This document shows, one piece after another, positions 18,323-19,916 of a stretch of 64,000 nucleotides of DNA (the stretch's first letter is position 1; each line of letters opens with the position of its first letter). The stretch covers positions 372,001-436,000 of the forward strand of contig NW_008805085.1 of assembly GCF_000004825.1 (NCBI RefSeq). Reading direction: 5' to 3'. The notes below the pieces were generated by a model that was given only the letters and a program-made list of their open reading frames with translations, searched no databases and was not told where the DNA came from. The translations under genes were made by a program, and so were the position numbers. The DNA comes from Heterostelium album PN500 (Eukaryota; Evosea; Eumycetozoa; Acytosteliales; Acytosteliaceae).

Positions 18323-19290
18323 ATGTCTTTCTTTGCTGACATTCCTAAGTATGAGGAAGATTGCGAGGGTGGTGTATGAGCTCGTCCCACTCCTGCCAAG
18401 AACGTCAATACCAACCAAGATGATGAAACTGCTTTGCTCATGGAAAAGGATGATTGTTGCTCCACTGCCAACAATAACCTCTCCGATGAAGCCGATGAAA
18501 AAGTAAGAGAAGAATCAGACAAGGATAAGAAACCATTATACATGTAAGTTACAATAAACGATCATTTCACATAAATATACACCATTCAAATCTCTAATCA
18601 TATCAATCAATTCCTAGTGCTATTCTCTCTGTACTCATTTCAATTCCAGCTTTGGTAGGAAGTTGATGTTGGCCACTTTTGGTGGCAAGCATTCTTGGTA
18701 TTGCCGCTTCGCAAGGTGCCGTTGTAAGTATAAACTATAATATAACAAAAAGTAAATAGAAAAAAAATTAATGATAACTAATCATTTTATTATTATTATT
18801 TATTGTTTGTTATTTTAGGGCTTTGCACACGCCATTACATTTGCCATTTCACTCACAATTTTGAGTAATCTCTCACAATATCACTATCACAAGTGCTGCA
18901 CACGTCGTAGTGATAAAGGTCATTGGTACAAGTTCGGACCATTCTATTTAACTGCAGTAGCTGTGCCGTTCGCTACTGTTGATATCCTGCGTCATATCCT
19001 AGTTGATAATGGTCTCTGGACAACTAAATCTCGTTGGAGTCCAGCTGCGTATGTATCTTTATACCATTTAAAATAACATTGCATTTCTTTTATTAATTTT
19101 TAATAATTTCCATAGTTATCGTCCAGGTTGTAATTCAGAAAGTATGAAGTGTCTGTCTGCTACTGGTTGGTTCTTTGTTGTTTTCTGTACCTACTTTGGA
19201 TATATCCTATTGATGGTGGGTACCATTTGGTGTGCTGATCTACATTTGAAGATCAAGAAACTCTGGAAACAACTCCGTCCATCTAAATAA
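18323..19290 (+). CDS. Candidate multi-pass membrane selenoprotein with two UGA (Sec) codons
   Basis: Four exons: 18323-18543, 18618-18723, 18829-19048 and 19116-19290. They form one continuous frame of about 240 residues interrupted only by TGA at 18377-18379 (context EGGV-U-ARPTP) and TGA at 18664-18666 (context LVGS-U-CWPLL). Codon use on both sides of each TGA is that of a real gene (GCC, AAG, GTC, ACC), introns keep phase across them, and the gene ends with a normal TAA. A SECIS-like element lies in the 3' UTR. The protein has an acidic Cys-containing N-terminus (KDDCCST), then about five hydrophobic segments (ILSVLISIPALVG, PLLVASILGIAA, AITFAISLTIL, FYLTAVAVPFATVDIL, GWFFVVFCTYFGYILLM) and a basic tail. 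Sec next to Cys at a membrane face suggests a redox function (inference). I do not recognise the family with confidence; it could correspond to a membrane selenoprotein (MSP) type, which needs checking. Confidence 0.82.
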
Positions 19291-19557
19291 CCAGCTAGAA
19301 CCAATTGACATGCTATCGATTTCAGAGATCTTGTTTTAGTTAAACAGAGTATGAAGTCTAGTCTGTAGTTAGTAATTTGTTTAGGATTATTTTGTTTGGT
19401 CATCTAGATTCAGGTGTCTGGAGATTCAGAGTGTTGGATAGATTTGATTAGTTGATTGGACCACAGAATTCAATGCACTGTACCTATCGTCGGCAAATCG
19501 GTAGTATAGTAAGTATACCTTGCGAGATTTGAATTTCTGTTGGCAATCAACCTCGAA

Positions 19558-19633
19558 CCATTTTAAATAGTGATGAATCCTATCGGCATAAACTTATAAA
19601 GTCGCTAATAGGATGATGTTTATTTAAAAATGG
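19558..19633 (+). promoter_or_regulatory. SECIS-like element in the 3' UTR
   Basis: Lying 268 nt after the stop codon. The lower helix pairs CCATTTTAAATA (19558-19569) with TATTTAAAAATGG (19621-19633). The non-Watson-Crick core has ATGA at 19573-19576 opposite TGAT at 19614-19617. The upper helix pairs TCCTAT (19578-19583) with ATAGGA (19608-19613) and CGGC with GTCG (GC, GU and CG pairs) past a small bulge. The apical loop ATAAACTTATAAA carries the conserved AA. This is the arrangement expected of a eukaryotic SECIS, with about ten pairs between core and loop. Confidence 0.85.
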
Positions 19634-19845
19634 ATTCGGATCAATTTTTGTCTAATACCTTTGTTTCTTTGTTGAATATTTGTTTAAAGATATTAAATAA
19701 ATTAATCTTGTTTATAATTCTTTTCATGTGTAATTTATTCTGTATAAGGTGTTTTTTATGTTGAATCAACTATTTTTTTTTTAATTTTAGAACAATTGGA
19801 AAAATAAAAATAAAAACGGAAATATTAATTTGAAATTTCATCAAA

Positions 19846-19916
19846 GCGTTGTTGGTCTAGTGGCAGAATTCTTGCCTTCCAAGCAGGAGACCCGGGTTCG
19901 ATTCCCGGACAACGCA
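19846..19916 (+). tRNA. tRNA-Gly (anticodon UCC)
   Basis: Full cloverleaf: acceptor GCGTTGT pairs with ACAACGC; the D arm contains GGTCTAGTGGCA; anticodon stem CTTGC/GCAGG with loop CTTCCAA (anticodon TCC, reads GGA); T arm CCGGG-TTCGATT-CCCGG; discriminator A. No intron. A TRE-like retroelement copy begins about 60 bp downstream in the same orientation. Confidence 0.97.

Follow-up and report, generated by a model that had tools for sequence, protein, structure and literature searches.

A well-supported selenoprotein gene with two in-frame TGA codons is present in the social amoeba Heterostelium album PN500, within the 64-kb window that was analysed here (contig 24, 372001-436000, of a genome of 32.9 Mb in 39 contigs). 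The favoured reading, to which a probability of about 0.9 is given, is that the gene product is a multi-pass membrane selenoprotein of 243 residues, likely the orthologue of the predicted membrane selenoprotein MSP, and that a SECIS element recodes UGA codons 19 and 90 as selenocysteine (Sec). The GC content of the window ranges from 22 to 41% per 2 kb, and the gene and its SECIS lie on the forward strand; positions are those of the window except where another contig is named.

The gene is made up of four exons that are separated by three introns, all of them with GT-AG borders. Exon 1 (18323..18543), placed by its splice joins and frame score, starts at an ATG after an A-rich leader and covers the acidic N-terminal tail together with the first Sec codon, the TGA of codon 19 (18377..18379), which is a predicted Sec in the context GGVUARP with coding signal on either side. 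Intron 1 (18544..18617, 27% GC) is followed by exon 2 (18618..18723), placed likewise, with the first hydrophobic segment and the second TGA, codon 90 (18664..18666), where the predicted Sec adjoins Cys 91 in the context GSUCWP. Beyond intron 2 (18724..18818, 13% GC), exon 3 (18819..19048), again placed by frame score, contains membrane segments and a basic CCTRR loop. Finally, intron 3 (19049..19115, 18% GC) leads into exon 4 (19116..19290), which contributes a CNSESMKC loop, the last membrane segment and a basic C-terminus before the TAA at 19288-19290. Whilst the introns have 13-27% GC, the exon pieces that were scored have 39-53%. The spliced frame is 732 nt long, equivalent to 244 codons including the terminal TAA, and the only stops inside it are the TGAs at codons 19 and 90, with no TAA or TAG before the end. 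The computed mass of the product, with Cys substituted for Sec, is 27.1 kDa. An initial annotation had described four exons in one frame broken only by TGA at 18377 and 18664, and both its positions and its joins were verified. An AATAAA at 19696..19701 is a possible polyadenylation signal by its match to the consensus, and a tRNA-Gly (TCC) gene lies on the same strand at 19846-19916, some 220 nt beyond the SECIS.

The coding character of the frame was assessed with a codon score, for which 12 long stop-to-stop frames in the window, with 5296 codons in all and unverified as genes, served as the training set. In five of the six coding segments scored, the proposed frame has the highest score of the three. 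The 18 codons 5' of the first TGA score 6.3, against -3.4 and -4.8 in the other frames, a value that 8 of 1000 shuffles equalled or surpassed, and the proposed frame is also the top one for exon 1 after the first TGA (25.0), exon 2 after the second TGA (6.5), exon 3 (17.9) and exon 4 (12.0). The exception is formed by the 15 exon 2 codons before the second TGA, which score 1.9 against 4.6 and 0.6, with 209 of 1000 shuffles equal or higher. The earlier claim that gene-like codons flank each TGA stands for both sides of the first and for the 3' side of the second, but not for these 15 codons. Two non-coding controls were scored, and the 63 nt 5' of the ATG are negative in all three frames. The 210 nt of 3' UTR at 19291-19500 give 2.3, 9.3 and 4.9, the top value falling in a frame with seven stops; the codon score is not a clean measure, because this control is high in one frame.

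The SECIS element of this locus occupies 19567..19623 (core 19573-19617) and consists of ATGAA, a 10-column helix, an ATAA bulge, a ministem of four pairs, a 1-nt 3' bulge and TGAT. Outside an internal loop, folding extends the structure by a lower helix (19558..19633; CCATTTT...AAAATGG), the letters of which were checked. In the spliced message 960 nt separate the first TGA from the core and 747 nt the second, and the element presumably belongs to the same transcript as the four exons. The hairpin has a folding energy of -19.3 kcal/mol (z -3.13), which none of 200 shuffles equalled. The helix contains nine pairs in its ten columns, including one G-U, and one C-A mismatch. A 3' UTR stem-loop with an ATGA...TGAT core and about ten pairs had been proposed from the sequence, a description borne out by the fold and by the covariance model discussed below but one pair too generous in the helix. 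An AAA is present after CAT, and in the minimum-energy fold ATAA is unpaired and the third A pairs into the ministem; the other four SECIS of this genome have TAA only, as opposed to the AAA found here.

Searches with structural descriptors were also undertaken. An earlier descriptor that lacked an effective fold constraint matched the window 63 times on the plus strand and 72 times on the minus strand, and the element was absent among the 12 plus-strand matches listed. The descriptor used subsequently was composed after the candidate had been folded and is thus post hoc. It matched the window twice on the plus strand and three times on the minus strand, with the 19567-19623 element as the best, whilst 3.84 Mb of simulated single-strand sequence gave 202 matches, nine of which equalled the element on inner energy and one on both energies. 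At the other loci, it returned a single match each for SelK and SPS2, its best of three matches at the Sep15 locus was the Sep15 SECIS, and it produced no match to the SECIS at the deiodinase (DI) locus. Since this descriptor is post hoc, the independent test is provided by a covariance model. The Rfam model SECIS_1 (RF00031) has no match in the window, nor anywhere else in the genome at E <= 10, a silence that means little at this locus because the model misses the other four SECIS of the genome too.

The genome contains parts of the Sec machinery, namely a tRNA-Sec with a score of 66.5 bits (cut-off 47), a SecS gene (E 1.1e-62) and an SPS2 gene (E 8.7e-52). Four further selenoprotein genes, for SPS2, SelK, Sep15 and DI, have a TGA at the expected Sec site, within KGUGCK in SPS2, CRUKLG in Sep15, TVGUAR followed by TAA in SelK and GSYTUPPF in the deiodinase. 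The deiodinase-like genes are two in number and lie in tandem on the minus strand of contig 39 (92274-93989). One of them has the TGA of GSYTUPPF and a SECIS and the next has Cys (TGT) in GSFTCIPF, so that the tandem is a Sec/Cys pair; the 1.5 kb 3' of the Cys copy contain no match to the SECIS covariance model at E <= 1.

That model was built from the SECIS elements of SelK, Sep15 and DI, with the present locus held out, and as it is small (three sequences) its E-values are rough. Within the window it places this hairpin at the top of nine matches, with 32.2 bits (E 2.2e-4), and the runner-up at 16.2 bits (E 0.78). The SPS2 SECIS, which has an 11-pair helix and was left out of both the model and the pair count described below, provides a second held-out case with 29.8 bits. 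When the window and 14 of the 21 loci were searched together, seven matches at E <= 1 were returned, namely Sep15, DI (twice, from overlapping loci), SelK, this element, SPS2 and one elsewhere; Sep15, DI and SelK match by construction. The match elsewhere, at L005:1185-1249 on contig 9, has 19.9 bits (E 0.2) and lies near a weak match to the tRNA-Sec model, and it is probably due to chance. With a SECIS of this kind, Sec is inserted at the UGA codons that lie upstream of it, at several if several are present. The recoding of UGA as Sec, already put forward in the initial annotation, is well supported at the level of sequence by the machinery genes, the four other genes with a TGA and a SECIS and the held-out model match.

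The SECIS elements of SelK, Sep15, DI and SPS2 share a common build: a helix with 10 or 11 columns comes first, then a bulge of four bases with TAA at its end, a ministem, a single unpaired base and TGAA. The DI element was picked by eye through its TGTAATGA motif and its pairing was assigned by hand. As plain MAFFT misplaced Sep15, the loops were padded with N to fix the register. When four of the five SECIS are compared, each from a different gene, both partners have changed in 13 of 14 pairs, a count that none of 500 shuffles reached and that is favoured by the setting of register and structure by hand for pairing. In the same four elements 91.1% of the pair cells are standard, and in slid versions 36-43% are paired. 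Since the four genes are from different families, the pair changes argue for a functional structure common to the elements and not for shared ancestry. The sequence UGUA stands 5' of the core in three of the five SECIS of the genome (Sep15, DI and SPS2), with AGTG in its place at this locus and GAGTG in SelK. A SECIS that has no UGUA before the core hence occurs in such a genome, in two cases of five.

The identity of the protein follows from comparison with Dictyostelium discoideum. According to the accessible text of Lobanov et al. 2007 (PMC2375036), that species has five selenoproteins, SPS2, SelK, Sep15, a deiodinase homologue (DI) and MSP, of which the last is a selenoprotein with two Sec that is predicted to lie in the membrane and occurs also in Chlamydomonas, Volvox and Ostreococcus. 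The same text reports four 75Se-labelled bands in D. discoideum, matched by size to SPS, MSP, DI and Sep15, and an algal survey, in the part of it available, gives MSP as nearly always in the Sec form (PMC7539508). The present locus is most likely the MSP orthologue, an assignment made by description and elimination, not by alignment, since this genome has the other four of the Lobanov set and the locus fits the fifth. The likeness, compared by description with the 2007 text, lies in a predicted membrane protein with two Sec, a SECIS and a position as the fifth gene beside SPS2, SelK, Sep15 and DI. With respect to the D. discoideum SECIS elements as the available text describes them, the element shares the type II build, the quartet core and an apical bulge with unpaired A's, but it has AGTG where UGUA precedes the core there. 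The U-U mismatch after the core also seems to be absent here, where A is opposite T, the position being taken from our own reading of the text description.

The initial annotation had claimed two Sec codons in one protein, which agrees with the in-frame TGAs at codons 19 and 90, and it had contained no mention of the two-Sec MSP of 2007. As two Sec in MSP were already published in the available 2007 text (PMC2375036), the locus is not a new kind of protein. It provides a second genome, besides that of D. discoideum, with two UGA codons in the gene of such a membrane protein. The literature conflicts over whether D. discoideum has a two-Sec selenoprotein, for the accessible part of a 2026 paper (PMC13063481) assigns a single Sec to each of the five selenoproteins. 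If the locus is MSP, it favours the two-Sec statement of 2007 over the single-Sec statement of 2026, as far as both texts are accessible. Among the open-licence papers listed by literature searches, no earlier description of this gene in the species was found.

The 2026 statement, in the form in which it is accessible, also lends some weight to a reading in which only Sec90 is real, the first TGA being avoided either by a start 3' of it (the first in-frame ATG is codon 40, at 18440) or by a small intron that removes codon 19. The N-terminal tail is short and could be dispensable, and among the 18 frame-keeping GT..AG spans able to remove the first TGA there is one of 75 nt; for the second TGA there is a single such span (54 nt, 50% GC). 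This reading is nevertheless judged very unlikely. The 18 codons that precede the first TGA, though a short stretch, look coding in this frame only, the A-rich leader stops at the ATG at 18323, and the alternative introns over the first TGA have 45-59% GC among the 14 of 18 listed, against 13-27% for the accepted introns. Moreover, Lobanov et al. 2007 (PMC2375036), in the text available, give MSP two Sec. A decayed gene or a sequencing error, in which both TGAs are real stops, would account for a frame interrupted twice, but it is hardly credible for a frame with no frameshift and no TAA or TAG before its end, canonical introns, coding signal in five of six segments and, 3' of the gene, a SECIS like the others of this genome.

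The protein could also be a dictyostelid membrane selenoprotein that is unrelated to MSP. MSP is known here by description, and the protein matches no Pfam family and no PDB chain, with a single weak bacterial match in NCBIfam (E 0.79). The pattern searches of contig collections, of which little was expected because they contain viral and prokaryotic DNA, gave 15 matches in the viral collection and 107 in the prokaryotic genome collection, and none of either was confirmed. In its own genome the gene has no second copy, all four matches being exons of this gene. An origin apart from MSP is considered very unlikely, since by count and by the accessible description (membrane, two Sec, fifth gene) the locus fills the place of MSP.

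On the reading as an MSP orthologue, 19-residue hydropathy windows above 1.3 are centred at residues 78-119 (with short breaks), 157-162 and 207-223. These windows uphold the membrane protein of the initial annotation, whilst its count of five segments is uncertain, as hydropathy allows four or five. The N-terminal tail (residues 1-72) is acidic, with 19 D+E against 9 K+R, and reaches the membrane with DKDKK. Basic stretches occur near residues 130-146 and in the C-terminal part, and positive-inside reasoning suggests a cytosolic location for them. A cytosolic N-terminal tail carrying Sec19 would give four membrane segments, and would bring Sec90-Cys91 to the side of the membrane where the loop with Cys191 and Cys198 lies.

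In the proposed mechanism, the 3' UTR SECIS would presumably be bound by a SECIS-binding protein and eEFSec with Sec-tRNA-Sec, and both in-frame UGA codons (19 and 90) may then be translated as Sec. The role of the protein may be in redox chemistry, the likeliest form of which would be a selenenylsulfide/thiol site formed by Sec90-Cys91 at the membrane boundary. A bolder and rather unlikely proposal is a selenol relay across the membrane, in which Sec90-Cys91 at the membrane boundary would exchange electrons with the loop of Cys191 and Cys198 on one side, and Sec19, in the cytosolic tail, would pass them on. No membrane selenoenzyme is known to work as such a relay. The Sec positions found suggest direct mutational tests. 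Sec19 may provide a second selenol on a flexible tail; it can be likened to the Sec of SelK and SelS, membrane proteins that have theirs in such a tail close to one terminus. Whilst the tail is here N-terminal, the membrane segments are several and no Pfam family is matched, the GVUAR around Sec19 resembles VGUAR, found C-terminally in the SelK of this genome.
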